Below, piece after piece: positions 24,948 to 40,206 of a stretch of DNA of 64,000 nt (position 1 is its first letter; each line of letters starts with the position of its first letter). Made by a program: the position numbers and the translations under genes. The notes below the pieces were generated by a model. It was not told the DNA's origin. It saw only the letters and a program-made list of their open reading frames with translations, and did not search any database. Source of the DNA: Gammaproteobacteria bacterium (lineage in GTDB: Bacteria > Pseudomonadota > Gammaproteobacteria > Pseudomonadales > IMCC2047); the NCBI GenBank assembly GCA_021773395.1, contig JAJFKB010000002.1:639050-703049 (forward strand). The letters are read 5' to 3'.

Positions 24948-25655
24948 CTAGCTCTCTTCAGAAGAGGTCAAAAAGCTCCTTAGCTGCTCACCCAAACCTT
25001 TGCAGGCGTTGGCTTTTACCCTCGCCAGCAAAGGGATTGGCACCACAACAGCCGGCATATAGGATGTACCTTTAGCGTCCGCTTTGATTTTCCCAACCGT
25101 TGTCAGGTTTTTGAAATCCCAAATTGACGCCTCGTACAAAGATTCGTCATCCCAGGTACCAAATCCCAGACACCCTCCACCACCAGGCCCGATGGAACAG
25201 GCGATTGACCCCGCTGAGCTGGTTCGTTCTGTCGATCCATCAACCCAGACAATATAGCGAATACCCAATTCCGTTATACGCTCTGCTATCTGCTCTCTTT
25301 GCAACAGGTTGTTCAACCCCTCAAGATGTACCGGAGCTGTTCGAGGTTCAAACCAGGGGTAAAGGTTGTCCGCAAACTCCTGTTCCGGGATAACACTCAC
25401 ATTAGCTTTCTGTCCACTAATTTCACCGCCTATACACTGAACAAAATCAAGCTCCGTTTCATAATCGCTTTTGTGCCGGCGCCCCAGAACCACAATTGAC
25501 TCACTCTTCGTTATTCCGGTATAGCCCTGCCTCATTTCATTTATGGTTGTGGTAGTACAGCCTGCCAGAACTACTGCTGCCGCCATTGCTGTCAGTGCAA
25601 CAAGGCTTAGCTTAAGCCACCTAATGCGCTTATTCAGATACAGTTTTCTGTTCAT
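24948..25655 (-). CDS. Putative outer-membrane lipoprotein, unknown function (end of envelope cluster)
   Basis: A 235-residue protein I do not recognise. A basic N-terminus and hydrophobic stretch end in the lipobox VLAGC (lipidated C33); the next residue is Thr rather than Asp, which favours the outer membrane. The mature part has SESIVVLGRRHKSDYETELDF and a Gly/Cys-rich segment CSIGPGGGGCLGFG, with several cysteines that could form disulfides. It is the most distal gene of the minus-strand envelope cluster, 98 bases after the next lipoprotein, so its membership is likely but not certain. Confidence 0.75.
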   Translation of the reverse strand: MNRKLYLNKRIRWLKLSLVALTAMAAAVVLAGCTTTTINEMRQGYTGITKSESIVVLGRRHKSDYETELDFVQCIGGEISGQKANVSVIPEQEFADNLYPWFEPRTAPVHLEGLNNLLQREQIAERITELGIRYIVWVDGSTERTSSAGSIACSIGPGGGGCLGFGTWDDESLYEASIWDFKNLTTVGKIKADAKGTSYMPAVVVPIPLLARVKANACKGLGEQLRSFLTSSEES

Positions 25656-25753
25656 GCAACCTCCACTAATTGAATCAGGTTTCTAGCACATTCACAAAAG
25701 CACGCCAACTATGTTGATGTCCTGTTCACCGTTCACTCACTACCGGCGATATC

Positions 25754-26464
25754 TTATTCTCGCAACATTTTTTCAGTTTCGGCAATTGACTGATCAAGCA
25801 TTGCAGCCGCCTTGTTGCTATGCGGATAAACGGCTTCCGTCGACATATCACCCGCACCCTTGTTTAATTCGTCGTTCAGCCACCTGCGCAGTTTTGGCAC
25901 TCGGTTAAAACTGGTTGCGAAATTAGCGCCCGCATCTCGCAGCGCCACTATAGCCGCTTGCTCCAATGCCTCTTCACGCGATTTCATAAAAGCTTTAGGC
26001 GTCTTGCCATAGGCGGTAATCGGCCAGTTTAGCAAGGGTGCACCGGCCGCCGAATAAAGTCTCATTTTATATTTCACCCAAACCTCAAAGATCTGGCTTC
26101 GCGTTTCCCTGGGAATGGTAAATTGCAACTCCTCAACCTCGGGTGCCAACACTGCGTTTACCTTTATTGGAGCGCTATTGGATGGCAAAACTGAGAGTTG
26201 CCGGGTCTCTGAAAAAAACTGGGCAAACAGCGTATCAAACAACCGTACCTGAGACGAACCGGTACTGATACTATAATTCCCCTTCTTTTTGTCTTCTATT
26301 TCGTAGTTGTAATTGCGGAACTCTTCTGAATAATAAACACCCATCTTGAGCGGCATCTGTTCCACCAACGGATCGGGGAAATGCCCATCAACGTGCACTA
26401 CTGTACCCCCACAGCCAATCAATAGCGCAACCAAAATGAACAATATTGTGTGCATCATAAGCAA
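25754..26464 (-). CDS. Putative lipoprotein, unknown function (envelope cluster)
   Basis: A 236-residue protein with a short leader and lipobox LLIGC (C18 in this frame, or C15 if the ATG at the fourth codon is used). The mature region contains QVRLFDTLFAQFF and EEVEELQFTIPRETRSQIFE, a pattern reminiscent of periplasmic lipoproteins with an ABC-type LptE- or CsgG-like alternation of beta strands, but no family can be named. A conserved-looking DAGANFATSF follows a helical EEALEQAAIVAL. It lies 66 bases downstream of the vWA gene at 26531. Confidence 0.75.
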   Translation of the reverse strand: MLMMHTILFILVALLIGCGGTVVHVDGHFPDPLVEQMPLKMGVYYSEEFRNYNYEIEDKKKGNYSISTGSSQVRLFDTLFAQFFSETRQLSVLPSNSAPIKVNAVLAPEVEELQFTIPRETRSQIFEVWVKYKMRLYSAAGAPLLNWPITAYGKTPKAFMKSREEALEQAAIVALRDAGANFATSFNRVPKLRRWLNDELNKGAGDMSTEAVYPHSNKAAAMLDQSIAETEKMLRE

Positions 26465-26530
26465 TTAGACTCAATTATCCTGAGTGATTCCCTAAACTCA
26501 CTAATTTAATTAGCCCTCCTGGTATAACCA

Positions 26531-27529
26531 TTATCGAAATTCACGCAATCCCACAAAAGTACCACCGTTTCTAAATGTTAGTTCCCGCATAAGCGTGGCA
26601 AAACGAATCCCGGTTTTTTGTAAATCCTCACGCTGGGAGAACTGCACCGGAAAACCGATCGCATGAATTCTTACCCTTTTTTCACCCGCAGCATTGGCTG
26701 TATTTATCCTATCGACCGTATCAACGACATCCTCAATTGATTTACCGGTAAATTCATCACCAAACACATAAATACTGATTTTTTTATCTGGCTCATGGAA
26801 CGCCCGAATCGCTCTGGTTATACCTTCCACAGGGCTGCTATTACTAAAAGGATTCCAGGTTCGCATCCTCTGGATGATGGCCTTTCGCCGGCCCGGACTA
26901 TCCGGAATCCATTGCCCGCGATAACGGGAGAACATATAGTCTCCCATATCGTTTAAAACCTGAATCCCCTTGACTTTCGGGTAGATATTAAGAGTCGCAA
27001 TCAGCTGCTCCTGCACCTTATCCCAACTATAATTAAACATACTTCCGGAGGTATCAATCACAAAAATAATATACTCGCTATCCACGGGAATACCACCCAC
27101 CAGATCATCCTTACGCCGATAGTCTTTACCAAGTAGACGCTGCATTTCAATCGTCATCGTTTGCTTTGCCAGTTGCAGCTGGCCGATTATTTTTGATTGG
27201 GTATCGGCGTCCAACCTTGACGCTTGGTACTGGGCTTCAATGCTCACCAGGTCCCCGCGCAAACGAGCCACCTTTTCGCGTAACACCGATAACTGTTCAT
27301 TTTTAACTGTTAAATCTCGATTAAGAACCTTGGTTTCGCCGCGAATTTGAAATAGCTTTGCCTGTAAATCGGCTACCACTCCTTGCAAATCGACCCGTGT
27401 TTCCTCCAACACAACGGGTTCGACAATTTTTGTAATCATCAACAGCAGGATAATCGCCCCAAAGCCACAGCAAATAACATCCAGAAAAGAGATGCTAACG
27501 GTTTCTGCCTCTCGACGATTTATCCTCAT
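26531..27529 (-). CDS. Membrane-anchored von Willebrand A protein with ExbD/TolR-like anchor (second copy)
   Basis: A 332-residue protein. A short basic cytoplasmic tail is followed by SISFLDVICCGFGAIILLLM (residues 12-31), a single helix with Asp17 placed like the proton-pathway Asp of ExbD/TolR (xFIDVMLVLL). Residues 45-110 are a coiled coil. A vWA domain follows with MIDAS D159-T-S161-G-S163 and a later GDEF that can supply the distal Asp. The topology implied is inner-membrane anchored with the vWA domain in the periplasm. It overlaps the preceding vWA gene by 4 bases. With the TolQ-like gene at 29965 it probably forms a proton-driven complex; that is inference. Confidence 0.88.
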   Translation of the reverse strand: MRINRREAETVSISFLDVICCGFGAIILLLMITKIVEPVVLEETRVDLQGVVADLQAKLFQIRGETKVLNRDLTVKNEQLSVLREKVARLRGDLVSIEAQYQASRLDADTQSKIIGQLQLAKQTMTIEMQRLLGKDYRRKDDLVGGIPVDSEYIIFVIDTSGSMFNYSWDKVQEQLIATLNIYPKVKGIQVLNDMGDYMFSRYRGQWIPDSPGRRKAIIQRMRTWNPFSNSSPVEGITRAIRAFHEPDKKISIYVFGDEFTGKSIEDVVDTVDRINTANAAGEKRVRIHAIGFPVQFSQREDLQKTGIRFATLMRELTFRNGGTFVGLREFR

Positions 27530-28614
27530 GGCCAGTCCTTTGATGGACTAAGAAATGCTCCTCCGGTTGCCAACGCCAGCTTCCAATAACTCGATGCGGC
27601 CATTGGGTCCCCTTCCAGTGGCAGCAAGATAACATTGACCGGGATACCTTTAGGTAACTCATCAATGGCCTGTTTGAACAGTTTGAGACGTTGCTTCCCT
27701 GACACCGTCGTAGCTTGTGGTTTGCGATCACCCTGCGTGGGCAACCCATCGGTAATCAAAATAATGTTGTCTGGCAGGGGCGCAAGGCGACGCACCGAGC
27801 GAAATAGATTTTCCAGACTGGTGCCATTTTCAGGAACCAGCGTTCTCAGACCATCCAGTGCTGTACCAAGCTGTTTGGTATTTTTGATTTCCAGCCAATC
27901 ACCGTCCGAAGCCGGAACAAGTGGTTTAACCTGAGTATTGAAGGTATAGATTTGATACCAGCTATTCACCGGAAACTGGGCCATTAACCACTCAACTGCC
28001 CCCGTGGCTTGCTTCCACTTGGCAGAATTCAGCTTAACCTCATCTGACATATTGCGGCGTCGAAGAATATTGACGATGCTATGATCCAGCATACTGGCCG
28101 ACATATCGAGCAATACCAGAATACGATTTCCGCCCAGCTTTAACCCGGTCAGATACTGCCGATCCCCTTCGCCCTGGACACGTCTTACCTTCGTACCTGT
28201 ATTTTTCTTACTCTCGGCTTCCAGCCGTTTGTTTTCTGCCTCAAGCGACTTCAGATCAGATTTCAGCTTTTTAATCGTGTCACTTTGTATGGGCGTGTCT
28301 TTTAGGAACAGACTCAACTCCAGCCGTGACTTCTCAACGTCCGTTAGAATCCGACGCGATAAGCCCTGAGCTTCTACCACCTGTTGATCCACACGAGCGA
28401 TGGTATTTCGTACCCGCACCAGACCCTCTTCACCAACGCGGATATCTTCATCAAGCATATCCACCTCTGCCAGTAACGTTCTATTTACCTCTTCTGAGTG
28501 AACATTGGCGGCATGGTCGATCATGAGAAAAATCAACACCACGGCGCCAAAACCACAGGACATAATATCCAGAAAAGAGAGGTTAAAAGTGGAAAAGCGC
28601 CGCTTGCGATGCAT
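27526..28614 (-). CDS. Membrane-anchored von Willebrand A protein with ExbD/TolR-like anchor (first copy)
   Basis: A 362-residue paralogue of the protein encoded by the next gene. The anchor reads NLSFLDIMSCGFGAVVLIFL at residues 11-30 with Asp16 in the ExbD/TolR position. A long coiled coil spans about 41-137 (VDMLDEDIRV, LKSLEAENKRLEAE). The vWA domain has MIDAS D170-M-S172-A-S174, NGTSLE as the likely Thr position and ITDGLPTQGD. All metal-ligand positions appear intact. It is placed 9 bases after the Hsp70-like gene and is translationally coupled to the second vWA gene. The binding partner is unknown. Confidence 0.88.
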   Translation of the reverse strand: MHRKRRFSTFNLSFLDIMSCGFGAVVLIFLMIDHAANVHSEEVNRTLLAEVDMLDEDIRVGEEGLVRVRNTIARVDQQVVEAQGLSRRILTDVEKSRLELSLFLKDTPIQSDTIKKLKSDLKSLEAENKRLEAESKKNTGTKVRRVQGEGDRQYLTGLKLGGNRILVLLDMSASMLDHSIVNILRRRNMSDEVKLNSAKWKQATGAVEWLMAQFPVNSWYQIYTFNTQVKPLVPASDGDWLEIKNTKQLGTALDGLRTLVPENGTSLENLFRSVRRLAPLPDNIILITDGLPTQGDRKPQATTVSGKQRLKLFKQAIDELPKGIPVNVILLPLEGDPMAASSYWKLALATGGAFLSPSKDWP

Positions 28615-28623
28615 CAGGCCAGC

Positions 28624-29958
28624 CTAGGATTCGCGGACAACCAACAATCGCTGATGCCCATCCCCTACGATCAGCTCGTCTCCAGGTTTTAACACAGCAT
28701 TTGAGCTGAGTGTCGCACCATTAACCCGAATAGATACGTCACTCTGGCGCTTAAGCAGCAGCTGGCTCTGCTCCAAAACAAACTCACAATAGATAGCATA
28801 TAATTCGGCGTTATCGGTATTCAGTATTAACGACCCGTCAGGACCAGAAGCGCCCACATATAGCTTGTCGCTCAGTTTAAAGGCCTTATCTCCATAAACA
28901 ATATGGGTTGCCCGTTGCGTATCGGCTGTGAGCTGATCTGCAACTGGCTCTGGCTGATACAACTGACCATCAGGCAAGGGTAACGCAGTGACAAAACTTA
29001 AGGCTGCCTGATCTCGACAGATAAATGACAGGTTATTTTCACATCCCTGGTAGCAGGCCATATCCGACACCACCTGATAGCTGTTCAGCAAACCACAAAA
29101 TCCTGGTAGCTGCGCCAATCTTGGGCTGACCAGAAGGCTTAAGCTATCGGTAACGCCACCCACTTCATGGAGCGCCTGCAACAGTTTCCGATATAAAGGC
29201 TGAACCTTTTCTACCACCTGTGATTTCAAAAGACGCGCCTGAAAGCGATTCGCGGATCCGGTCATTTCCAAGAGCACCTCTTCCGTCTCAGCAAATGCTG
29301 CTAGCCACTGTGGCAGCTGACAATAAAGTGCCTGCTCGGATTGTGCATTATGTAAGGGGTCAAAACGACACTGCTCAATAAAGGTATCGGCGATCAACTG
29401 CACCCAGTAATCATTGAATTTTACCAAACCCACATCGGAAGTGGTGACTACTGTGCCCCGCTGAACTTGCTCGGCGACTCTTAACTCGGTAATGACCAGC
29501 TGGTGCAGGTGTATGTCCAGATGATAGATCAGCGGCTGCAAGGTACTAACTGCAGCCGCTGCCACAGCGATATCCACTAACCCAACCACTTTAATCGAGC
29601 ACTCCTTGGCAATACCCAGAAGTAACGAAAGCTGTTCATTGCTATAACTACCTGGCACCGCAAATATTACCTGGGGTGATTCTCCCAACTGCTCGGTGAT
29701 CGCCTTAAGGTGTGCATAAACCAGATCGGCATGATGCCTGTAATGGCTATTAGCTTGCGTTAATGGATCCAGACTTAATCTGTACCAGAACTGATTGTGA
29801 GATCTACGCGGGTGGATTCTGGCTTGGTTGAAAGCGACTTCGCCCACCGCTACTTTAGCATCATCGATCACAGCATAGCCTGGACCATGTGAAATGAGTT
29901 CTCCCGCACTGACCACCCGCAGGTCAGCATCTGTTATTTCGATAACATGCACGCTCAT
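28624..29958 (-). CDS. Degenerate Hsp70/actin-fold protein with C-terminal FHA-like domain
   Basis: A 444-residue soluble protein without a signal peptide. The first 330 residues resemble the actin/Hsp70 ATPase fold: VIEITDADLRVVSAGE at the start, VIFAVPGSYSNEQLSLL and VVGLVDIAVAAAAV, as in DnaK before its connect region. The second phosphate motif, normally DLGGGT, reads DIHLHQLV without the glycines, so ATP binding is doubtful. The last 100 residues (RVNGATLSSNAVLKPGDELIVGD) look like an FHA domain, which binds phosphothreonine. It would lie on the cytoplasmic face of the complex. The fold call is by eye and should be tested by structure prediction. Confidence 0.7.
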   Translation of the reverse strand: MSVHVIEITDADLRVVSAGELISHGPGYAVIDDAKVAVGEVAFNQARIHPRRSHNQFWYRLSLDPLTQANSHYRHHADLVYAHLKAITEQLGESPQVIFAVPGSYSNEQLSLLLGIAKECSIKVVGLVDIAVAAAAVSTLQPLIYHLDIHLHQLVITELRVAEQVQRGTVVTTSDVGLVKFNDYWVQLIADTFIEQCRFDPLHNAQSEQALYCQLPQWLAAFAETEEVLLEMTGSANRFQARLLKSQVVEKVQPLYRKLLQALHEVGGVTDSLSLLVSPRLAQLPGFCGLLNSYQVVSDMACYQGCENNLSFICRDQAALSFVTALPLPDGQLYQPEPVADQLTADTQRATHIVYGDKAFKLSDKLYVGASGPDGSLILNTDNAELYAIYCEFVLEQSQLLLKRQSDVSIRVNGATLSSNAVLKPGDELIVGDGHQRLLVVRES

Positions 29959-29964
29959 TTCATC

Positions 29965-30768
29965 TTAGCCCTCGCGCAATTTCAAGAATCGCATAAGGTT
30001 GTTATCACAGTATCTTTGATTATCGAGCACCAACCGCTCCTGTAACAGCTGAACCTGATGTAACAGAAACATAATAATGATGCTTATAACCAATGCGATA
30101 AAGGTGGAGTTAAAGGCCACACCCAGGCTTGCGGTTACGCCAGCGATATCGCCTTCAACTGCGAGATGCGCCTGACCCAGTGCTTCACCAATTCCCCGCA
30201 CCGTGCCAATAAAACCGATCGAAGGAATAGCCCAGGCAATATATCGAATCATCGATAACTCTGAATCGAGTCGATCCGACTCATTCTCACAGGTTTCGCG
30301 TATTGAGGATGAAACATCCTGGATATTGCGGGTCGACCCGAATCGCTGCAGTGCGGTATAAAGAATACGCGCCAGCAAAAACTCCTGTTCCTGCTCTGGC
30401 AGCGCTTGAATGGGCCGCAAATATTCTCGGGCATCCTCCGGCAGAATATTCATACCTTCCGAAACCTCTACCAATCGCCTGTCCAGCAATACACGCTCGC
30501 GAAAAGCATTACGCGCCTTATAGCCCATGATTGCCATCGCCCAGAGCATCAATATAAAGCAGGACTCCTGCTCAAAATCCTTAAGAATTACATACAGAGA
30601 CCGGGAAGGAATAAAGTTTTCTCCGGCGGCTTGCAGTGCCAATTGCTGTTCTAGAATCGCGTCGGCGTTTGGTCGAATGACCCCAACATAGATGGCATGC
30701 ACCAATATCACCGCAACAAACAGGGCGAACACCTGAAACATGAACTCGGATGACAGTTTACTCTTCAT
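29965..30768 (-). CDS. MotA/TolQ/ExbB-type proton channel protein
   Basis: A 267-residue inner-membrane protein. Hydrophobic segments lie at about 9-31, 68-84, 176-198 and 214-238. The signature of the family is AIPSIGFIGTVRGIGEALGQA at 180-200 in the third helix; the fourth helix has the polar start NSTFIALVISII. The large loop between helices 2 and 3 is cytoplasmic and charged. It lacks the length of true TolQ partners in its neighbourhood: no classical tolR or exbD is present, the vWA proteins downstream apparently taking that role. It lies 6 bases before the Hsp70-like gene. Confidence 0.9.
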   Translation of the reverse strand: MKSKLSSEFMFQVFALFVAVILVHAIYVGVIRPNADAILEQQLALQAAGENFIPSRSLYVILKDFEQESCFILMLWAMAIMGYKARNAFRERVLLDRRLVEVSEGMNILPEDAREYLRPIQALPEQEQEFLLARILYTALQRFGSTRNIQDVSSSIRETCENESDRLDSELSMIRYIAWAIPSIGFIGTVRGIGEALGQAHLAVEGDIAGVTASLGVAFNSTFIALVISIIIMFLLHQVQLLQERLVLDNQRYCDNNLMRFLKLREG

Positions 30769-30776
30769 TGGCTATC

Positions 30777-31013
30777 CTAAATGTCGACGGGGTAGGAGAC
30801 TGAACGATCTTCGGAAATATCTTCACTCGGAGTGAACGTATCGGGCGTTTTAACTCCCGCGCTCTTCTCAATCTCAGTTTCACTTTGAATAGTTTTCTCC
30901 GCTGGCTCTTGCTCTTCCAGGCTTGGGTCACCGGTATTTTTCTGAGGGTCAGCATAACCTGACAATGCTAGCGCGAACAGACCAAAATAGCATACCCTCT
31001 TTAAACAGTTCAT
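30777..31013 (-). CDS. Small secreted acidic protein with an altered lipobox
   Basis: A 78-residue protein. The leader CYFGLFALALSGYADPQK looks like a lipoprotein signal, but the residue at the lipidation position is Tyr (codon TAT) rather than Cys (TGT or TGC), a single-base difference. The remaining 55 residues are acidic and low in complexity, with no fold expected (many Glu, Ser, Pro, Thr). The gene sits between the PEGA/FGE gene (3-base gap) and the channel gene (8-base gap), so it is translated as part of the operon. Its function is unknown. Confidence 0.65.
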   Translation of the reverse strand: MNCLKRVCYFGLFALALSGYADPQKNTGDPSLEEQEPAEKTIQSETEIEKSAGVKTPDTFTPSEDISEDRSVSYPVDI

Positions 31014-31016
31014 GAG

Positions 31017-33083
31017 CTACTCCAAAAACCGTGCCAATCGAAAACCCAGGTCATTGCGCCCATCATTTCCATAGTCCCGATAAGACAACCGCAACTCAGC
31101 AATACTCCCATGTGCCCAGCTTGATCCTCTAATGACGTGGTACTTGCCGCTATCCGGACCCAGCGGGTCCTCAACCACTCTATTCGACATACTCCCACCG
31201 GTGCTGTAATAGTCATGCGCCCACTCCGACACATTGCCACCCAAGTCATAGAGCCCATTTTGATTAGGTAAAAAACTTCCAACAGGAGCCGTAACTGCAT
31301 ACTTGTCATCATACTGGGTCACTATGCGGCCTATAATAAAAGCCGCTGAGCGATCCGCATAGTTCCCGGATTTTTCAGTCGGTGGCAACTGCGCCCCCCA
31401 GGGATACTTATAGAGACCATCCTTGCTGTTTCGCGCCACCCAGGCCCACTCGGCTTCCGTCGGCAGCCGATACCCGGTTGCAGCCTCATTAAAGCCTACC
31501 ACTTCCCCCTCCTCGACCCTGTAAGCTAGCGGCAAGCCTTCCCGTTCGCTCAACCAGTTACAGTACAGCGCAGCCTGCTGCCAACTCACCTTGACCACCG
31601 GCTGGCTATCACCGTCAAGACTATACCCTTCCACATTGCCCGAGGAGTGTAGCTTTTCAAAAAGCCGGAAGTGTTGATTTGTAACTTCCTTTGTCCCTAT
31701 GTAAAAGGCTCGATTTAAACTGACCTGTTTTAAAGACTCATTTGCCCGTCTGCCCGCTTCGCGGCGTGACGCTCCCATGGTCAAGGAGCCGGGTCTGAAC
31801 AATTTCAACTGCTGTCCATCGCTCAGGGTTATTATCGGCTTAACAGCCTCCCACTTTGCCTGCTCCAGAGTCTTAAGCCTGACCTTGACTTGTTGCTCTA
31901 ATCCCTGCCTCGGGGTGATATAGGTTTGGTAGCTCACATATCCCTCTTTACGTATTTCCAGCATTTGCTTTTCCGTCGGCAACGAGAATACCTGATTCGC
32001 TGTACCCACATACTGATTATCAATGAAGACCTTAGCATCCGCGGGATATCCAACAACTCGTATATCAGCCACTATTGGTTCCAGCTTAATAATATACGAC
32101 TGTTGTGATCCGGAGATAATCCTAAAATCTTTCTTAGCCGCGAGATAACCCGGTTTGAATAAGTTTAGCTGGTAGCGCTGCTTCGGTTTTAGTGAAAGAC
32201 TTAAGGGTGTTTGGCCGCGAAAAACATCGTCCACCATGACGTTCGCCTGACTCGGCTCACTTTGTATCCTGACTACGCCGTCAAGCGGCTCCAGCCGCAC
32301 CATCGGTAAAGTTAAGGATTGATTCGCTTCGACGGACAGCTTCTGTTGCCAATTTTTATAACCTTCAAAAGATAAAATTAAAAGCCGTTCACCTTGCATC
32401 ACCTCTACACTTTTTGGGGTGTAACCTTGCGGCTCATTATCAACCAAAATAGTCGCACCTGGCGGCTCCGAACTCATACTGATATCACTCCAGGCTGGCT
32501 TCAACTCAACCGACATTTGGTGGGCTAAATCCTTACCTTCTATCTCGATATCGGTTGATTGGCTTATATAACGTCCAGCTTCCAGTCCAACGCTATACCG
32601 GCCCGCCTCTATCAAATAATCCGTTACCGGTGTTTTTCCAATAGCTTCTCCATCAACCAAGACCGCCGCACCTTCGGGCACAGATCTCACAAACAGTCTT
32701 CCAGGCAGTTTTAACATCTGGAAATCAAATTTCTGATTTGGCTCTTGCGATACTTCTATCGGTTGTTCAAGCGTCCGATAACCCTTCTGTTTCGCCTGGA
32801 TTAAATATTCACCCGGGCGCATCAAATAACGCTCTCCCAGAGTGATGACAATGCCACCTTTAATCTCTACATGCTCTGCCACCGGCTCAAAGGAAAGATA
32901 AACTGAACGAGCGGTGAACACGTACCACATGGCTATCAGGAGCAATAGAAATACACACCCAAGTATGGCCGTGACAGGTTTAATCCACGGCTTTTCGGTA
33001 ATACGGCCCGCATCTACCGGCTTAAAATTCAGCGGCTTGATGACATTTTCCTGATCGGCATTCGGTTCTAGATTATCTGGCAT
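31017..33083 (-). CDS. PEGA-repeat protein with formylglycine-generating-enzyme-like domain
   Basis: A 688-residue single-pass membrane protein. The N-terminal 35 residues are cytoplasmic, a helix spans about 36-56, and the rest is periplasmic. Four clear PEGA repeats lie at about 130-197, 203-265, 269-335 and 340-405 (for example VPEGAAVLVDGEAIGKTP), with a weaker one at 60-125. Residues 420-688 form the FGE/SUMF1 fold: GYRLPTEAEWAW at 537-548, GNVSEWAHD at 616-624, RGSSW at 652-656 and GFRLAR at 680-685. The cysteine pair that binds copper in active FGE is absent (the segment reads SSWAHGSIAELRLSYR), so sulfatase activation is unlikely; a binding or scaffold role is inferred. Confidence 0.88.
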   Translation of the reverse strand: MPDNLEPNADQENVIKPLNFKPVDAGRITEKPWIKPVTAILGCVFLLLLIAMWYVFTARSVYLSFEPVAEHVEIKGGIVITLGERYLMRPGEYLIQAKQKGYRTLEQPIEVSQEPNQKFDFQMLKLPGRLFVRSVPEGAAVLVDGEAIGKTPVTDYLIEAGRYSVGLEAGRYISQSTDIEIEGKDLAHQMSVELKPAWSDISMSSEPPGATILVDNEPQGYTPKSVEVMQGERLLILSFEGYKNWQQKLSVEANQSLTLPMVRLEPLDGVVRIQSEPSQANVMVDDVFRGQTPLSLSLKPKQRYQLNLFKPGYLAAKKDFRIISGSQQSYIIKLEPIVADIRVVGYPADAKVFIDNQYVGTANQVFSLPTEKQMLEIRKEGYVSYQTYITPRQGLEQQVKVRLKTLEQAKWEAVKPIITLSDGQQLKLFRPGSLTMGASRREAGRRANESLKQVSLNRAFYIGTKEVTNQHFRLFEKLHSSGNVEGYSLDGDSQPVVKVSWQQAALYCNWLSEREGLPLAYRVEEGEVVGFNEAATGYRLPTEAEWAWVARNSKDGLYKYPWGAQLPPTEKSGNYADRSAAFIIGRIVTQYDDKYAVTAPVGSFLPNQNGLYDLGGNVSEWAHDYYSTGGSMSNRVVEDPLGPDSGKYHVIRGSSWAHGSIAELRLSYRDYGNDGRNDLGFRLARFLE

Positions 33084-33183
33084 TCCCTATATCCGCAAAC
33101 TAAACTATCTCGCTATCTACCAATGCTTTCGGCTCTGATCCGGCAAACCTTTCGTAAAGGCGAAATGTTGCTTTGTGACCTGA

Positions 33184-34701
33184 TTAAATCTTTTCCTCGC
33201 ACTGGATTTTTATCGGCCCGACCAGCGTTTTTTTGGATACCACAAACTCTTTTCGCACGTCGCGATACCCCACACGCTTACCTATTAAAACATAGCCCCC
33301 TGGTTTTAAAGACAGCTCACGCTGAGTAAAATTTCCTAAGTGTCCAACTTTATAAAGGGTTACATCGGTCTCGTTATCCGACTCTATACGCACCAGCGAA
33401 GGCTCTATGGCCTGTTTGAGAAGAGTCATTAAACTGTCAATTTGACCCATCAATCTCGGCCCGGGGTTCGCCACAGTTCCAGCAACACCCAACAGCTGTT
33501 CGGCTTCTCGATAAACTGCATCGCTGGTTAATCGGCTCGGATCTGCAAGCTGCTCCTGCAGCAGGTCGTCAAGCCGCGCTCGATCGCCGGTACGTTTTAA
33601 ACCCTGTTGCGCAAATATTAAATTTGGATCGAGTGCCAGTACCGCTTGATATTGTTTTTGTGCTGCATGCCATTGCTCGCTCTCTACCAGCTTCTTTGCC
33701 TCTGCGCGCAAATGGGCAATCTTGTTTTGCACCAGCAAATTGGTCACTTCTGCACGTCCGGTATTTGCTTCAGCTGACCGTGGTTTTAACTGACCTGCTC
33801 TAGTGAAATGTTTTTCTGCCTGGATCAGACGGTTTTGCTGTAATGCTCGATAACCCTCAGACATGGCCAGTGAAAAATCCCGCTCCAGTATCTTTGCTTT
33901 AATGGCATTTATCGCTGTTTTCGCCTGCAGTGATTCATCATCAAGCGCCAGCGCCTCTTGCAAACTATTTTGCGCACTATCAAAATCTGCCTGCTGCTCC
34001 ATCTGCTTTGCCTTTTGCACAAGCAGATTCACTCTATCCAGGGTAGCAACACGCTTGAGACCGTTATGCGCTGCTTCATTATCCGGATCAATTATTCGTA
34101 CTAGCTCAAATGCTGCACGAGCCTGCTCGGCCAATCCATCATGAATAGATTGGAAACCGACTTGCAGCTGCTGCTCGATCACAGCATTTACGCTGTCAGC
34201 GATGCTGCGCATCAGTTCGAGACTCTCACTGTAGAGCTTTGCTGCGTTCTGAAACTGCCGCTCACGATATTTCTCATCCCCCTGGGTTGCCAGTGCTGCG
34301 GCCTCTGAAAACTGCTGTTGCGCCCATAACCTGACACTTTTCTCTTCCAGTTCAAATTGCAGATCGAGCAACGGCTCCAAAATCTGCTGTGCCTGCTGCC
34401 TTTCTCTAGCCAACTGCGCTTCCTGCCAAGGGGAAATCTCTGGCGGGATCTGCACTGCCCTGGTATTTTCTTGCGTAACTACATCTGGCTGTGTAATAAA
34501 GCGCGGCAGCATGACAAATACTGCAATTGCCAGGGCTACAGACAGTGAGAAGCTTGCTATCAACCATTTCTTGTGAATATTCTTATCTGAATCAGCACGA
34601 GAAGTTTGACTGTCGCTTGGCCCTTGAGGAGATATCTCAATTTTTGCAGGAGTGATTTTTTCAAATTCGGGCAAGTTCGGATCAGTCGAATCGTTTTGCA
34701 T
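33184..34701 (-). CDS. Membrane-anchored TPR protein with C-terminal PEGA-like domain
   Basis: A 505-residue protein. A cytoplasmic N-terminus of 45 residues precedes one helix (KWLIASFSLSVALAIAVFVM). The periplasmic part is mostly helical repeats with TPR character (AARAAFELVRIIDPDNEAAHNGLKR-type and NRLIQAEKHFTRAGQLKPRS), about residues 90-410. The last 80 residues (VRIESDNETDVTLYKVGHLG, then LKPGGYVLIGKRVGY) form a PEGA-like domain like those of the next gene. It lies 100 bases upstream of the PEGA/FGE gene. I infer a structural partner of that protein in the periplasm. Confidence 0.82.
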   Translation of the reverse strand: MQNDSTDPNLPEFEKITPAKIEISPQGPSDSQTSRADSDKNIHKKWLIASFSLSVALAIAVFVMLPRFITQPDVVTQENTRAVQIPPEISPWQEAQLARERQQAQQILEPLLDLQFELEEKSVRLWAQQQFSEAAALATQGDEKYRERQFQNAAKLYSESLELMRSIADSVNAVIEQQLQVGFQSIHDGLAEQARAAFELVRIIDPDNEAAHNGLKRVATLDRVNLLVQKAKQMEQQADFDSAQNSLQEALALDDESLQAKTAINAIKAKILERDFSLAMSEGYRALQQNRLIQAEKHFTRAGQLKPRSAEANTGRAEVTNLLVQNKIAHLRAEAKKLVESEQWHAAQKQYQAVLALDPNLIFAQQGLKRTGDRARLDDLLQEQLADPSRLTSDAVYREAEQLLGVAGTVANPGPRLMGQIDSLMTLLKQAIEPSLVRIESDNETDVTLYKVGHLGNFTQRELSLKPGGYVLIGKRVGYRDVRKEFVVSKKTLVGPIKIQCEEKI

Positions 34702-34838
34702 AGAGGGTTAATTTCTTTATTCTTCGGCACTCAGAAGGCGGCACCATTTTGGTGATTAGGGAACCTATGATTAATTTCTCAGCCTTAGGGAATATTACAT
34801 AACTGCTGTGCTCGGCAATACCGAGTTAAAAACCGGCT

Positions 34839-34864
34839 AAAAAGTTTATTTATGATTATAAACT
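34839..34864 (-). terminator. Weak rho-independent terminator within the envelope cluster
   Basis: On the minus strand, AGTTTAT and ATAAACT arms of 7 bases (34858-34864 and 34843-34849) enclose an 8-base loop, and the 3' arm runs into TTTTT. It lies about 50 bases after the stop of the lipoprotein gene at 34913. The stem is A+T-rich, so termination is probably partial. It would divide the cluster into an upstream three-gene unit and a downstream unit starting with the TPR/PEGA gene. Confidence 0.5.
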
Positions 34865-34912
34865 CCTTTTTTCTTCTCTTTCTTCCACTATAGACCTGAT
34901 GCAAGGTTTCCT

Positions 34913-36103
34913 TTAATTTTTACCTTCAACTGACTCAGTTTCAGTAACATAAATATCATACAGAATTTCACGCCACTTACTATATTGATCATCCACTGTT
35001 CCCGTCAGGGTGACGGTTCGATCCTGCAACTCCACCACCTGAGGCTCGACCTCCAACTCTAACGAGTTACCCAGCTCCTGCAACGCCTCCTGGTGCAGCT
35101 GTGATTCTGCGCGTTTATCCAGCCCGCTTTTAAAAAGGTACGCGCCACCAATAATACCAACCTGTCCTGCAGCTTCAACCGACCCATCTCCCGATCCTGC
35201 TGCTGCCACACCTGCGATAATAGCAGCCGTACCTGCGATCATTCGATTCCTCGCAGCACGACGCAGTTCACGCAAGGCAACCACTTCATCATAGGTCATC
35301 TTACGCCATTCCAGATAGGGTTTGCCCATTTCCATCGCAAAAGAGGAATAATAATCCTGCAACGTATCTATATATAGATAATCACGTTCTCTTATCTGCC
35401 GTACACGAATTAAAAGCGGCTCATTAACAGGTGGTAATCTCACGATCTCATAGATTCCAGCTTTATTGGCCTGCATATACTCTGAAAAGGCATCGGGAGA
35501 AAAGCTGCGCGCAAACTTAAGTTCGGAAAGAGTTCGAATCCGTTTTAGTTGTGCGGGTGATAACTGCTCTCGAAAAGTCAGCATGTCATTGGCAATACGA
35601 TTATAGAGCCCCTGAAATGGGTCTAATTGCGCATGCATTTTATCGTCATAATTATACTTACTGGTGATTTCTTCGTATTCCCGGACAAACCATGTCTTAC
35701 CTGAGCTGTCGCTCACACTAATCTCCAGCTGCAACATTTCACCATCGGAATGTAGGATTTTCCCCTCAACATACAGATCGACAATACTCTCTTTACTCGG
35801 CACAATTCTAACCGCACCCCAGCTTGCGTTCTTTTGCAATGTCTCAGTCAGGGTAAAAGGAATGTATCTGGACTCGGCTTTACGGATTTCCGGCAGAGTG
35901 ATGGCTTTCTTGTCCTCCAATAATTCATCAATGCCCGGATTAAATATCAGCACCCCCACATCAAGCAATTGACTTTCCAAAATCTCAGTCGTTTCATACT
36001 TTAGCGGTGTAATACTGGTCGTTTTAACGGTGGTGCTGGCGCAACCGGCCAATACCAGTATCGTTAACCAAAAACAGGTAAATTTTTGCACCCCGTTCAC
36101 CAT
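34913..36103 (-). CDS. Putative outer-membrane lipoprotein, unknown function (envelope cluster)
   Basis: A 396-residue protein with signal peptide and lipobox VLAGC (C21), followed by Ala-Ser, which favours the outer membrane. The first 180 residues contain LLDVGVLIFNPGIDELLEDK and NASWGAVRIVPSKES, a pattern seen in lipoproteins that carry a divergent LPP20/GNA1162-like domain, but I cannot name the family. Near residue 290 a glycine/alanine-rich hydrophobic stretch (IAGTAAIIAGVAAAGSG) could insert in a membrane. The start overlaps the end of the Ser/Gly/Glu-rich gene by one base (ATG within the stop region), suggesting coupled translation. Confidence 0.78.
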   Translation of the reverse strand: MVNGVQKFTCFWLTILVLAGCASTTVKTTSITPLKYETTEILESQLLDVGVLIFNPGIDELLEDKKAITLPEIRKAESRYIPFTLTETLQKNASWGAVRIVPSKESIVDLYVEGKILHSDGEMLQLEISVSDSSGKTWFVREYEEITSKYNYDDKMHAQLDPFQGLYNRIANDMLTFREQLSPAQLKRIRTLSELKFARSFSPDAFSEYMQANKAGIYEIVRLPPVNEPLLIRVRQIRERDYLYIDTLQDYYSSFAMEMGKPYLEWRKMTYDEVVALRELRRAARNRMIAGTAAIIAGVAAAGSGDGSVEAAGQVGIIGGAYLFKSGLDKRAESQLHQEALQELGNSLELEVEPQVVELQDRTVTLTGTVDDQYSKWREILYDIYVTETESVEGKN

Positions 36104-37095
36104 TATTTACTCTTACCCTGATTCTTGTACTTGCGATATTCATCCCATAATTTCTCCCGCAACTCGGGATCAGGTTCCTGTATCGCCGCTTCCCGCAGTT
36201 GTCGCGCCACCACGTCATCGTCCGTTCCGTCAGGAATGTCCGGAGGAGGCGCGTGAGACACTGCCGCATGCTCGAACTCTCCCGCTCGCTGATCACCACC
36301 CTCAGGCCTGCTTCCTGAGCCAGCACCTGTTATCTCTCCTCTTGGTTCACCCTGCTGCTCACCGGGAGCCTGCTTTTCTTCCAAATCACTATCAACATCT
36401 TCACCACTGCCGCGGGCGTTTTCCTTACCCCGGACATATTCTCGCTCTCTCAGAATGACGCCTTCAAAATCCCCATAGGATTCTTCCAATTTCCGATCAA
36501 GTATTGCAATCTTTTCCTCGCCAGTTTGCGCACTGTTTGGTGCGCCTTGGCTACCCCCGGGATTATCATCGGCCGCTCCCTCAAACCCCTCCATTTTTTC
36601 TATTGCATCTCCCACCACCTCATTTTCTGACTCCAGGATTATGGGAAAATCTGTTTGTTCTTCCGCCGCCCCTTTACCCTGCTCACTCTTTCGTGCCCGC
36701 TCAAACTCTTCCAATGCTTCCGAGAGAGTTCTTTCCTCAGTATCGTCGGTGCCTGCTACCGATCCTTTCGACCCATTATTATCCTTGCTGATACTCGCAT
36801 CACTAGCCCCTGCACGCGACACTTTCTCCGCACCACCCTGTTTGTCATAACTTTTGTTTTTGCCTGTTTTCTCCTGCCCTCCCGACTGTGGGCTTGGCAG
36901 CGACGGCGATGGATTACGCCCTCCGCCACTTGGCAGGCTGGAACTAGAACCAGAACTGCCCGAAGAAGTCTCTGTTGATGGGCTACCCGGTGAACCACTT
37001 CCTCCGGATGTTTGAGGGATCGTTTTACAGCCGTAGCACATCGCACAGATTACCACGAGCGAAATCAACTTGAGGGGTGCACCTGGATTTAGCAT
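36103..37095 (-). CDS. Low-complexity Ser/Gly/Glu-rich lipoprotein (envelope cluster)
   Basis: A 330-residue protein, counted from the ATG at 37095; the longer frame starts with TTG at 37140. The leader ends in the lipobox-like CAMCYGC (lipidated residue about 23). The mature protein is almost entirely low-complexity: an early Ser/Gly/Pro tract, then long Glu-, Gly- and Gln-rich stretches (EDVDSDLEEKQAPGEQQ), predicted to be disordered. The C-terminus (EAAIQEPDPELREKLWDEYR) is helical and better conserved in appearance. It may act as a flexible spacer spanning the periplasm or peptidoglycan; this is inference. Confidence 0.72.
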   Translation of the reverse strand: MLNPGAPLKLISLVVICAMCYGCKTIPQTSGGSGSPGSPSTETSSGSSGSSSSLPSGGGRNPSPSLPSPQSGGQEKTGKNKSYDKQGGAEKVSRAGASDASISKDNNGSKGSVAGTDDTEERTLSEALEEFERARKSEQGKGAAEEQTDFPIILESENEVVGDAIEKMEGFEGAADDNPGGSQGAPNSAQTGEEKIAILDRKLEESYGDFEGVILREREYVRGKENARGSGEDVDSDLEEKQAPGEQQGEPRGEITGAGSGSRPEGGDQRAGEFEHAAVSHAPPPDIPDGTDDDVVARQLREAAIQEPDPELREKLWDEYRKYKNQGKSK

Positions 37096-37117
37096 TTTAG
37101 TGTTTCTCAATACTGTT

Positions 37118-37159
37118 AATGTGTCTAACCTTAAAATCAATGTGTCTAGCCTAAAAATC
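37118..37159. repeat. Two imperfect 21-base tandem copies at a gene end
   Basis: Bases 37118-37138 and 37139-37159 match at 19 of 21 positions. The second copy contains the last codons and the stop of the TPR-TonB gene; the first copy is non-coding because its stop is altered. This looks like a local duplication of the gene's 3' end. Confidence 0.75.
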
Positions 37160-38464
37160 GAAAATGTGTTTTTCCATCACGCCTTTTGCCAACACTGGTT
37201 TACCCTCGACAATGCGAGGGCGGTAACGAGTGCTTTTCACCGACTTATATACCTGAGAATCTTTTACGTTCGGAGGGCTTGATTCGACGATTTCAATATT
37301 TTGGGTGCGGCCTCCGGGTGTTACCGTAAACTTGACGCGCACAAAACCTTTTTGTTTCTTTTTATCCAGTTTAGCGCCTATATCATCGAAAGGCATAGCA
37401 AAATTAAGTGCTCGCGGTCTATCAAATATTTGTTTTGCCAGGTGCTCTTGATCTTTGCCCGATAGCAGCTCAATCGCCCCTGTATAGACATCCATTGCAG
37501 ACTCTTTTTTGTCAAACAAAAAATACCAGTCACCCAGCTGTACTAAAGCTTCCACATGATCACTAACAGGTAGCTGAGGGTTACTCTGAAACAGATTTAC
37601 ACGCCTCAGCAACGCTTTTTTACCGTCACGGTAAGGACTCCCATAGGTAGGCAGATTATCCGAAGGAGAGATAGGCAGCGTTCTGCCTTGCGCTGGAGAC
37701 ATCCCCATGGGCTGGGAAATACTGTTTGGTTGACTAAATTGTTGACTATGATTTTGGTGTTCCGATAGATAATAGCTCGCGAGAGCCTGCCTGTATAAGG
37801 TTTCATTCAAACGTGGGTCATGGACGCCATAGTGCTTCTCGATAATCGCTATTGCTTTCTTATTCAAATCCATCGCACGCAGCAGATGAAGGATGCTAGA
37901 ACCTCGGTGAAAAGCAATTAAGTGCCATTTAACCATATTATTAATGGGTGCTAACAGCTTGGGGTTTCCCTCACCATAGCTATGCTGCTGTATGTTATAG
38001 AGCAACGATTGTTTATCATTCGCGCTCCGCCAATCCTCAATGGCAACATAGCTTTCAATCAAATGTGACAATATCGAAACTTGATCCAGACTATATAACC
38101 CGCTATTTACACGCCTGATATGGAACGCGCGTTTGAATGCGCCGATCGCAGAAACTTCTTCACCTTGCGATTTTTCAGCCAATCCCAAACCAACCAATTG
38201 CTCTACCAGGCGGTTATCATAGACGCCATAGTTATTCTCCAACTCTGTAATGGTCTGCCTGTAGAGTTCCTTGGAACCATGATATTCATGCATGTCGCTA
38301 TGCGTTTTCGTTGCGAGGGTTGCAGATTCATCTTTGGCAAGTTCCTGGCTGTTCGGGATATTTGGCGACTCGCCAGATGAAATCAACGGATCAGAGGCCC
38401 CAAGCGGGCCGGCAAAAAAGACCAATGACAAAAAAACCGGAATGAACTTAATTCTCTTATTCAC
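37151..38464 (-). CDS. Secreted TPR protein with C-terminal TonB-type domain
   Basis: 437 residues from the GTG at 38464, chosen because the product then begins VNKRIKFIPVFLSLVFFAGP, a clean signal peptide; the open frame extends to an ATG at 38563 but the added 33 residues have no leader character. Helical TPR-like repeats follow (GLGLAEKSQGEEVSAIGAFK, LVQLGDWYFLFDKKESAMDV). The last 90 residues match a TonB C-terminal domain: VRVKFTVTPGGRTQNIEIVE and YKSVKSTRYRPRIVEGKPV. It has no membrane helix or proline-rich spacer, so it is not a classical TonB. It is the first gene of the envelope cluster. Confidence 0.82.
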   Translation of the reverse strand: MNKRIKFIPVFLSLVFFAGPLGASDPLISSGESPNIPNSQELAKDESATLATKTHSDMHEYHGSKELYRQTITELENNYGVYDNRLVEQLVGLGLAEKSQGEEVSAIGAFKRAFHIRRVNSGLYSLDQVSILSHLIESYVAIEDWRSANDKQSLLYNIQQHSYGEGNPKLLAPINNMVKWHLIAFHRGSSILHLLRAMDLNKKAIAIIEKHYGVHDPRLNETLYRQALASYYLSEHQNHSQQFSQPNSISQPMGMSPAQGRTLPISPSDNLPTYGSPYRDGKKALLRRVNLFQSNPQLPVSDHVEALVQLGDWYFLFDKKESAMDVYTGAIELLSGKDQEHLAKQIFDRPRALNFAMPFDDIGAKLDKKKQKGFVRVKFTVTPGGRTQNIEIVESSPPNVKDSQVYKSVKSTRYRPRIVEGKPVLAKGVMEKHIFDF

Positions 38465-38701
38465 ACTATGGCCATAACTCTTTCTAGAGCATGAAGGGAA
38501 ACTTATTGCGCAGCGCGTAAGCACTAAGGAGCCAAAACTCAAGTGACACTGCAGTCCCTGCATTTACGGCCAGCAATTTCAGAGACCCAATTGGGTTATT
38601 CTGTGCACCAACAGATGCCAGTTACTTTATAACCAGTTACTTCAGAAAACTTTACAACAAGCTCTACCAGAGTCTGACCCCAATGGAAATGCAATGTTCC
38701 T

Positions 38702-38741: not shown

Positions 38742-39728
38742 TCAACCTTGAGAAAGGAGTTCTCTTAAATCGATAATGGCGGCATTAGCTCTGGCAATGT
38801 AGGATGCCATCACTAGAGAGTGATTTGCAAACAGCCCAAAACCACTTCCATTTAAGATGATTGGACTAAGCATCGGTTCCTGGGTTGATTCCAGCTCTCG
38901 TATAATTTGCTGTAGGCTGATCAGTGCATTCTTCTTCTTAAGGGTTTCAGCAAAATCGATCTCGATCGCCTTTAGTAAATGTACCAGCGCCCACGCCGTA
39001 CCTCGGGTTTCATAAAAGACATCATCCACCTGATACCAGGGTGTTTTAATTTCCAACTCCTTCGGCAACTCGGTAGACTGACTCGCCTCGGCTTCACCGG
39101 CCAGATCGGTGTTGATGCGACGCTGTCCGACACTAGCACTGAGCCTTTGCGACAAACTTCCCAGTCTTGTCTCTATATCAGCCAACCAGTTACGCAGATT
39201 ATCCGCTCTTGCATAAAACTGAGCGCTATTCGGATCCGCACTGGACAGACCGCCCAAGTAGCGTTTCAGCGATTCGATGCCGGTTTTGTATTCTGATTCG
39301 CTGGCAGGAAACATCCAACTGCTGTTATCAAAATTAAATTGTGGCTCTGCGACAGCCAGATTAACATCTTCAACAGACTGAGATTGAGATCGACTAAAAT
39401 CCTTGCGTAAAGCCCTCGACATGTCACGTACCTGAACCAGGACCCCGAACTCCCAATTAGGTATGTTATCCAGCCACACGCCCGGCACGCCTATGTCGTT
39501 TGACAAAAAACCACCCGGCTTCTCCATTAACATTGAAGCCACTTCAATCAGTGTATTAGTAGTAACATAACCAACTACGGGTACAGCTGTTGTTCCCACT
39601 GATCCCTCTTTTTCTACCTGTACATCAAACAAATCAGGTTCACTACTCCAATAAAAACCCAACAATAGCAGCAGTACAAGCAACGTCAGGAGCGTTATCC
39701 CAGCCACTTTTTTCATATTATTCATCAA
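38742..39728 (-). CDS. DUF2333 family inner-membrane protein
   Basis: A 328-residue protein of the DUF2333 family, found in Pseudomonas and relatives and of unknown function. One membrane helix of Leu-rich character lies at about residues 9-27 (ITLLTLLVLLLLLGFYW). The following region has VVGYVTTNTLIEVASMLMEK and PGGFLSNDIGVPGVWLDNIP, the family core, then FYETRGTAWALVHLLKAIEID. The bulk is periplasmic and helical. It is separated by 28 bases from the copper-chaperone gene upstream and by 277 bases from the envelope cluster downstream. Confidence 0.87.
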   Translation of the reverse strand: MMNNMKKVAGITLLTLLVLLLLLGFYWSSEPDLFDVQVEKEGSVGTTAVPVVGYVTTNTLIEVASMLMEKPGGFLSNDIGVPGVWLDNIPNWEFGVLVQVRDMSRALRKDFSRSQSQSVEDVNLAVAEPQFNFDNSSWMFPASESEYKTGIESLKRYLGGLSSADPNSAQFYARADNLRNWLADIETRLGSLSQRLSASVGQRRINTDLAGEAEASQSTELPKELEIKTPWYQVDDVFYETRGTAWALVHLLKAIEIDFAETLKKKNALISLQQIIRELESTQEPMLSPIILNGSGFGLFANHSLVMASYIARANAAIIDLRELLSQG

Positions 39729-39756
39729 ATGGACACTCTCTGAGCGTTATCCAACA

Positions 39757-40206
39757 TTATTGAAACTCCGCTGAGATGGATTGAACAGGTGCTTTTACAG
39801 AGAACGCTGATGCTTTCTTGAACTTTAACTGAAAATCAATCATCTGCCCGGCTTCTAATGCCTGTTGCAATCCCATCAGCATCAAGTGATGTCCACCTGG
39901 TTTGAATTGAAAAGAGCCTTGCGCCGGGATGACGACCTCCTTTACTGGGCGCATTCCCATTACACCATTTTCGTGCAGATGTGCGTGTATGTTAACCTTG
40001 GGTATCTGATCACTGACGACTTCAATCAGAACAAGTTCAGAGTTAGACCGGTTGTGAATTTGCATATACGCGACTGAATTGCTCGCCCCCGGAATACTTT
40101 CTCGAACGTAGGCCCCTTGTACCTCTATATCCATGGCAGCTAACTGCACCGATAAAAAAATGCTCAACAGCATTGTTAATAATGTAGAATATTGTCTAAT
40201 CAACAT
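39757..40206 (-). CDS. Periplasmic copper chaperone PCu(A)C
   Basis: A 149-residue secreted protein (signal peptide ending VQLAAMD). Family features are YMQIHNRS with the first Met ligand, then NIHAHLHENGVMGMRP and PGGHHLMLMGL, which together supply the H(M)x10Mx21HxM copper-binding pattern. PCu(A)C proteins deliver Cu(I) to the CuA site of cytochrome c oxidase. The role fits an aerobic respirer. The divergent dsbD gene begins 130 bases away; the shared region has an A+T-rich stretch but no box I could fix. Confidence 0.92.
   Translation of the reverse strand: MLIRQYSTLLTMLLSIFLSVQLAAMDIEVQGAYVRESIPGASNSVAYMQIHNRSNSELVLIEVVSDQIPKVNIHAHLHENGVMGMRPVKEVVIPAQGSFQFKPGGHHLMLMGLQQALEAGQMIDFQLKFKKASAFSVKAPVQSISAEFQ

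Follow-up and report, generated by a model that had tools for sequence, protein, structure and literature searches.

A conserved gene cluster around a TolQ-like channel and two vWA proteins may encode an envelope machine driven by the proton motive force

Positions 24948-38563 of the 64-kb stretch of gammaproteobacterial DNA studied here (the window: contig JAJFKB010000002.1 of assembly GCA_021773395.1, positions 639,050 to 703,049) are filled by twelve open reading frames (ORFs), all on the minus strand, and each lies where a first-pass annotation, made from the sequence alone, had placed it. In order of transcription, and under names of our own, they are tonBtpr, lipD, lipC, pegaTPR, pegaFGE, pep, tolQ, hsp, vwa2, vwa1, lipB and lipA (Table 1). 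Seven of them, lipD-lipC-pegaTPR-pegaFGE-tolQ-vwa2-vwa1, are called the core genes below. Domain scans covered all twelve proteins in Pfam, ten in NCBIfam and ten in PADLOC. The family was followed through 92 loci, many of them on short contigs: the window, eleven relatives and 80 loci from a scan of contigs of named genomes, in which the best 80 of at least 244 relatives were kept. The 92 loci are therefore biased to close kin, which separate draws of relatives, class genomes and phylum genomes were meant to offset. Loci and genomes are cited by L and G numbers.

The channel protein tolQ belongs, as first proposed, to the TolQ/ExbB/MotA type. Its residues T189 and T222 are invariant (79/79) and align with a conserved Thr pair in five of the six other PF01618 (MotA/TolQ/ExbB) proteins of the same genome, the sixth paralogue (L003) being excluded from the alignment. 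None of the twelve window proteins matched PF02472 (TolR/ExbD) at E<=1, and the cluster holds no TolR/ExbD gene. Both von Willebrand factor A (vWA) proteins carry an Asp in their membrane helix, D17 in vwa1 (92/92; helix motif FLD..CCGFGA) and D16 in vwa2 (87/88; FLD..SCGFGA), the vwa2 counts referring to the 88 of 92 loci with a full-length match. Also conserved are D159/S161/S163 and D258 of vwa1 (92/92), D170/S172/S174 and D289 of vwa2 (88/88) and T265 of vwa2 (85/88), all of which we take to be residues of a metal-ion-dependent adhesion site (MIDAS). The claim of two membrane-anchored vWA proteins holds outright for vwa2. For vwa1 the Pfam VWA match is sub-threshold (0.019), and none of the 12 vwa1 members of set A1 matched VWA at E<=0.01; its assignment is backed by the DxSxS motif and by hhalign, which aligns it to vwa2 with a probability of 99.4 over 185 columns and makes the two proteins paralogues at profile level. 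Profile searches of the PDB with vwa1, vwa2 and tolQ returned nothing useful. Because of the membrane Asp, the vWA pair is likely to be the equivalent of TolR/ExbD, that is, a pair of stator-type subunits. The first picture of vWA arms beside the channel gives way to that of a heterodimer which would replace TolR/ExbD inside a pentameric channel.

A motor of this kind has been predicted before. Williams-Jones et al. (2025; PMC12204202, section 8) described a family named TPH-vWA, made of a TolQ-like gene and a heterologous vWA pair with a TolR/ExbD-like pore helix and its Asp, without tolR or exbD and present in Proteobacteria and Verrucomicrobia; they modelled a TolQ pentamer with a vWA heterodimer, and no function was known there. 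The genes, the pore-helix Asp and the range of hosts are common to the window's family, in which tolQ lies beside the vWA gene pair, tolR and exbD are missing, and the membrane Asp residues and the Thr pair are conserved to the extent given above. From these shared features we infer that the motor of the window belongs to the TPH-vWA family, for which that study used Idiomarina proteins. The first-pass statement that no such system had been described consequently falls for the motor. The words PEGA and formylglycine do not occur in the main text of PMC12204202; its section 8 names no Hsp70-FHA, lipoprotein, peptide or M48 partner, and its figure 4c may picture some of the neighbours. A literature search that did not cover subscription papers and preprints found no other paper on this motor.

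The remaining proteins would place parts on both sides of the inner membrane. In pegaFGE, PEGA was matched in four stretches (3e-52) ahead of an FGE-sulfatase match (2e-39), FGE standing for formylglycine-generating enzyme. Among solved structures, this FGE domain comes closest to four chains: two carry the name PorK or porK/gldK (2e-19), and a near-identical pair is labelled "putative lipoprotein" (1.5e-19). FGEs rank behind them at 3.5e-16 and weaker. Only C508 is well conserved (66/72); no other column of the domain has Cys in as many as 15 of the 72 rows, and the 12 printed rows show no Cys in their RGSSW region. A catalytic FGE is rejected, there being no conserved Cys pair; one Cys of the catalytic pair is visible in an FGE from the PDB search. 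The second proposed PEGA protein, pegaTPR, is clear in its tetratricopeptide repeats (TPR; TPR_2, 7e-9) and weaker in its PEGA-like C-terminus: Pfam gave no PEGA match there at E<=1, and a PEGA profile built from pegaFGE passed HMMER inclusion in 27 of 66 family members, the window's copy not among them, and in 0 of 66 shuffled sequences. The TPR protein with a TonB-type C-terminus, tonBtpr, was found as first described, and by eye its N-terminus resembles a signal peptide.

The hsp protein is indeed a degenerate Hsp70/actin-type protein with a C-terminal forkhead-associated (FHA)-like domain. Its AlphaFold2 model (predicted local distance difference test, pLDDT, 93.8) has Hsp70 structures as best Foldseek matches (1e-17, TM up to 0.69 to the nucleotide-binding domain), and its C-terminus gave profile matches to several FHA structures (best E 0.0019). 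An active Hsp70 is rejected: the fold is present, but the motifs that we take to be the Hsp70 phosphate loops are absent from the consensus of the family alignment. Likewise, the residues that we assume to bind phosphopeptides in FHA domains were not seen by eye, and the FHA/Hsp70-like sensor first suggested remains unproven.

Clear lipobox Cys residues are found in lipA, lipB and lipC of the window, whereas that of lipD is atypical, so that the four lipoproteins or lipoprotein-like proteins originally counted become three lipoproteins and a probable fourth. An Asp at position +2 is absent from lipA (65/65), lipB (70/70) and lipC (63/63 with the Cys, which one of 64 members lacks); 42 of 51 lipD proteins have a recognisable lipobox, none of them with Asp at +2. 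In E. coli, lipoproteins without Asp at +2 go to the outer membrane, and by this rule all four would be sorted there. On this sorting signal, the proposal of parts running from cytoplasm to outer membrane around a proton channel is borne out. Its placing of parts at the peptidoglycan is not, as the domain scans reported no known peptidoglycan-binding domain for the twelve proteins. The AlphaFold2 model of lipC (pLDDT 85) has Foldseek matches to LptE (8.9e-4) and TolB (1e-2) and long helices at residues 229-301 and 309-350. In lipD (233-487 amino acids) a C-terminal motif, DD..ARQ.REAA..E.D....LW.EY, is kept at most positions in 51/51 full-length members, 13 partial matches being excluded from the alignment. 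The pep family (54-131 amino acids in the 30 rows printed) was matched in 78 loci and ends in PxDI in 60/60 full-length members, 18 partial ones being left out of this count. Since their middles vary and their ends are fixed, we read pep and lipD as docking ends on flexible tethers. Profile searches of the PDB gave no credible relative for lipA or lipB. Five Cys of lipA (C33, C74, C153, C162 and C218) are invariant in 65/65 members, four of them besides the lipobox Cys, and suggest two disulfides in an otherwise unclassified lipoprotein.

Table 1. Genes of the cluster, with positions in the window and the basis of each assignment
Gene	Position	Strand	Feature	Basis
lipA	24948..25655	-	lipoprotein with four further invariant Cys	alignment of 65 members
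lipB	25754..26464	-	lipoprotein, accessory of one gammaproteobacterial clade	70/92 loci
vwa1	26531..27529	-	vwa2 paralogue; membrane helix FLDVICCGFGA with Asp17, coiled coil, vWA-like domain	invariant residues; hhalign
vwa2	27526..28614	-	N-terminal membrane helix with Asp16, coiled coil, periplasmic vWA	VWA_2 8.9e-8; conserved residues
hsp	28624..29958	-	degenerate Hsp70 nucleotide-binding fold and C-terminal FHA-like domain, predicted cytosolic	AlphaFold2, Foldseek, profiles
tolQ	29965..30768	-	TolQ/ExbB-family proton channel, 267 amino acids	MotA_ExbB 7e-16; invariant T189, T222
pep	30777..31013	-	small secreted peptide, variable middle, C-terminus P-x-D-I	family alignment
pegaFGE	31017..33083	-	inner-membrane anchor, four PEGA domains, non-catalytic FGE-fold domain	PEGA 3e-52; FGE 2e-39
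pegaTPR	33184..34701	-	inner-membrane anchor, TPR rod, PEGA-like C-terminal domain	TPR_2 7e-9; PEGA support weak
lipC	34913..36103	-	lipoprotein; N-domain with weak LptE/TolB-N-like fold, long helical arm	AlphaFold2, Foldseek, lipobox
lipD	36103..37140	-	probable lipoprotein, long variable region, conserved C-terminal motif	alignment; lipobox atypical in window
tonBtpr	37151..38563	-	exported TPR protein with TonB_C-type C-terminus	TonB_C 1.5e-9 plus TPR

The first-pass annotation had suggested that the neighbourhood be checked for recurrence, and it does recur, far beyond chance. Among family genes on the operon strand, tonBtpr left out of the count, the gene order is kept in 91 of 92 loci; the only exception, L045, starts at vwa1 and is probably a cross-matching artefact, and L068, scored as in order, has lipD-lipC-pegaTPR-pegaFGE inverted past vwa1. 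Where at least 8.6 kb are available upstream of vwa1, 60 of 64 loci hold the seven core genes on the operon strand, the exceptions being L061, L068, L082 (without lipD) and L106 (without pegaTPR); hsp is present in 59 of these 64 loci and pep in 63. Median intergenic gaps range from -1 to 42.5 bases. We detected tonBtpr in 38/92 loci; many loci stop short of its position. In one set of 369 genomes of the class, vwa1 was found in 32 (own genome counted) and lipC in 27, with 26 shared (hypergeometric 4e-33, relatedness not corrected for); vwa1 occurs without lipC in G142, G145, G267, G365, G367 and G370, and the sole genome with lipC and without vwa1 is G239. This last genome, a single contig, has lipC in two ORFs and pegaTPR in three (L170, G239:C1:1836000-1855900), with no vwa1 and no TolQ profile match, and looks like the decaying remnant of a cluster that has lost its motor, provided that sequencing errors do not account for the breaks.

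Carriers of vwa1 amount to 12 of 57 relatives (own genome counted) and 15 of 299 genomes of the phylum (13 of them one family). The class to which a Desulfobulbus metagenome-assembled genome (MAG) belongs gave 11 carriers among 144 genomes, and the phylum of a Kiritimatiellia MAG gave 17 among 240, one of these with a match at 5e-6. For an Acidobacteria MAG, the sole carrier among 149 genomes of its phylum was the starting genome, and Acidobacteria are for this reason doubtful as a genuine host. In a 96-row motor tree, built by a quick method and with long branches and some rows misplaced by phylum, the window is placed among its own genus and family, and members of many named families cluster with one another; L029, of the window's order, groups with cultured Microbulbifer. 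One gammaproteobacterial clade of this tree bears lipB in 64/64 rows and lipA in 61/64, the next clade neither (0/25). A mobile element is rejected, given these groupings and a tblastn search with vwa1 (E 1e-5) that found no match among 72,556 plasmid and 50,697 phage records.

On the Verrucomicrobiota side the motor genes stand apart in several genomes. In L142, L144, L145, L146, L151, L173, L175 and L176, tolQ-hsp-vwa2-vwa1 stand without adjacent envelope genes (L147 is without hsp, and L174 is cut by a contig end), and pegaTPR- or pegaFGE-like genes lie nearby on the opposite strand in L145, L173 and L175. Among the 17 vwa1 carriers of the phylum, the seven with lipC are those with the strongest vwa1 matches. 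Two of these (G977 and G423) have lipC close to vwa1; the other five (G866, G944, G1037, G1040 and G1008) have lipD-lipC-pegaTPR at a locus unlinked to the motor, accompanied by pegaFGE in 3/5 and pep in 0/5. All five contain tolQ, hsp, vwa2, vwa1, lipD, lipC and pegaTPR in two or three separate places, and the C-terminal motif of lipD is seen again in 5/5. In G1037 the motor and envelope loci share one 4.4 Mb contig and lie about 0.8 Mb apart. Because all five split genomes hold both halves, the parts appear to be retained together even where they are not neighbours. In G1008 (L177, L178) vwa1 is on one contig, tolQ-hsp-vwa2 on a second and the envelope genes on a third.

Taken as a whole, the cluster is a conserved unit and very probably encodes one machine. 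Our best explanation, which we hold to be somewhat better than an even chance, is a dedicated machine in which the proton motive force (PMF) powers the transfer of force from the inner membrane to the outer. Five TolQ-like subunits would surround one vWA1 and one vWA2 helix, and proton passage across the two membrane Asp would turn this helix pair. Held up in the periplasm by coiled-coil stalks, the vWA domains would engage PEGA rods anchored in the inner membrane, the repurposed FGE domain serving as a docking hub as in PorK of the type IX secretion system (T9SS). The lipoproteins lipC and lipD would bridge rods and outer membrane, with lipD making its contact by the C-terminal motif that its long variable tether carries. 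An accessory missing in some lineages, hsp may act from the cytosol, without hydrolysing ATP, as a cap or regulator of the motor. As to the output, Tol-Pal-like upkeep or remodelling of the outer membrane is a tentative choice, possible but short of probable; we favour it over secretion or gliding because the domain scans recognised no outer-membrane pore or barrel and no surface adhesin in the cluster. One clade usually encodes an M48 metalloprotease alongside.

Several observations weigh against this explanation. The other carriers in the phylum of the Kiritimatiellia MAG (10/17), with divergent copies, have motor genes and no lipC match, so that the motor can have other partners. The near-complete genomes G267 and G367 are without lipC yet keep most of the other genes (L171, L172), tolQ lying on a different contig in G267, and in L156 and L172, outside the 92 loci, tolQ comes after vwa1. 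The genes hsp and pep are not universal (13/25 and 21/25 rows of the second clade, respectively), and L148-L150 have the seven core genes with neither of them detected. The vWA match of vwa1 is sub-threshold, the likeness of lipC to TolB and LptE is weak, and the absence of a pore from the cluster leaves room for one encoded elsewhere.

Other ways of using such a motor have to be weighed against the dedicated force-carrying machine. In a separate class of proton-driven envelope machine, fitted with a metal-dependent clutch, the vWA heterodimer would grip and release a carboxylate ligand at each step, this ligand being the invariant C-terminal Asp-Ile of pep or the acidic C-terminal motif of lipD, and rotation would be passed to the FGE/PEGA hub and on to the outer membrane. 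This is founded on the DxSxS motif and later Asp of a MIDAS-type site, conserved in both vWA proteins; pep was, however, not found in the split genomes, which retain the vWA pair, and we consider the clutch very unlikely. A gliding or surface-motility engine, whose envelope complexes would be moved by the motor and push against the substratum, would have its model in Agl-Glt of Myxococcus, which passages of PMC3169522 and PMC13104615 describe as a TolQ-type channel with two different TolR-type partners, FHA and TonB-type GltG, TPR proteins, the small secreted GltF (89 amino acids) and the vWA adhesin CglB. Our set has parts of similar kinds, but the partners there are ExbD/TolR proteins while vwa1 and vwa2 have no PF02472 match, unlike AglQ/AglS; its vWA protein is a surface adhesin where ours would sit on the motor, the gene set is different, and no barrel or adhesin is recognised here. 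Membership in Agl-Glt is thus rejected, and gliding as an output is unlikely. Quality control of outer-membrane proteins or lipoproteins, with the motor pulling damaged proteins towards an M48 protease, has about the same low probability. It draws on 50 loci in which the cluster has a neighbouring M48 metalloprotease gene, on the operon strand in 50/50, downstream in 49, with a median gap of 9 and HExxH in 50/50 (identity confirmed by Pfam in three). Against it, linked M48 genes are limited to part of the family (44/50 in the tree clade bearing lipB and lipA, 0 in the 25-row clade, 6 outside the tree), such genes are common in general, each of 12 genomes giving 2-10 M48 matches, and the window's cluster has none adjacent, the closest in its genome being unlinked on another contig (G000:C6:28719-30128; 42% identical over residues 16-482 of 483).

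Secretion or surface export of T9SS type, with the motor driving an outer-membrane ring, gains from the FGE domain, whose nearest relatives are PorK/GldK, as well as from the PMF motor, the secreted peptide and the lipoproteins. In a passage of PMC12421860, the PorK FGE fold is a docking hub without the two catalytic Cys, part of the PorKN ring on which the PMF motor PorLM acts, much as proposed here. The GldK/PorK equivalog score is nevertheless 117.8 bits against a cut-off of 350, which rejects T9SS membership; the FGE domain follows four PEGA domains on an inner-membrane anchor and is not on a lipoprotein, and the scans of the twelve genes, ten of which were run in NCBIfam, hit no further T9SS family. 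According to a passage of PMC13104615, moreover, GldLM is not homologous to MotAB, while the channel of the window is of the MotA/TolQ/ExbB family. Export is quite unlikely. An anti-phage system like Zorya, which also has a MotA/TolQ-type channel, is extremely unlikely: ZorA models matched weakly (0.005 in PADLOC; 0.084 in NCBIfam, at 11.8 bits against a cut-off of 500) and within the shared channel region alone, PADLOC gave no ZorB/C/D/E-type match in the ten proteins scanned, gene order is conserved across distant lineages, and the plasmid and phage records had no vwa1. A defence system is rejected on the far sub-cut-off ZorA score, the missing partner genes and the plasmid and phage result.

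Among classical systems, Tol-Pal resembles the cluster in its TolQ-family channel, its lipoproteins and the weakly TolB-like N-domain of lipC. Membership is rejected, as no TolR, TolA, TolB or Pal was matched in the cluster; the same genome has a separate canonical ybgC-tolQ-tolR-tolA, whose TolQ is one of the six PF01618 paralogues. TonB-ExbB-ExbD is rejected too, on the missing PF02472 and the signal-peptide-like N-terminus of the TonB_C protein. The "third kind" of Tol/Exb-like complex claimed at first is not supported, T9SS and Agl-Glt being already further PMF-driven envelope machines. We file the dedicated machine as a variant of these, its motor already predicted and its other parts without a description that we found.

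The predicted, partner-less motor is now placed in a defined machine of seven core parts and named accessories, and its function thus becomes testable by deletion. The cluster is carried by cultured strains, for instance of Microbulbifer, Pseudoalteromonas and Bowmanella, and is therefore accessible to genetics. With T9SS it would make two cases in which a PMF motor is encoded together with an FGE fold put to a new use, and its pore-type subunit pair of two different proteins should be useful for understanding how 5:2 motors transmit rotation.

Around the cluster, genes for DUF2333 and a PCuAC copper chaperone lie directly upstream on the same strand (38742-40206), an apparent dsbD also lies upstream, and apparent ppa and pfp lie downstream on the opposite strand (dsbD, ppa and pfp judged by eye); DUF2333 adjoins the cluster also in the same-genus relative L027. 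Promoter counts were 29 against 23.0 in shuffles (standard deviation 5.0), and terminator counts 19 against 14.9 (standard deviation 4.0). In L155 and L158, of one genus, the cluster lies a few kb from a second TolQ-like gene (253 amino acids), where the sizes of neighbouring ORFs suggest a ruvCAB-ybgC-tol-pal region. In many relatives M48 is a thirteenth gene (for example L045:2443-3894). About 3-7 kb downstream, on the same strand and not adjacent, some loci (such as L074, L088 and L095) have genes of lipopolysaccharide-core type, with one member of each kind checked by Pfam: a heptosyltransferase (8 loci), a glycosyltransferase (8) and a WaaP-type kinase (5).

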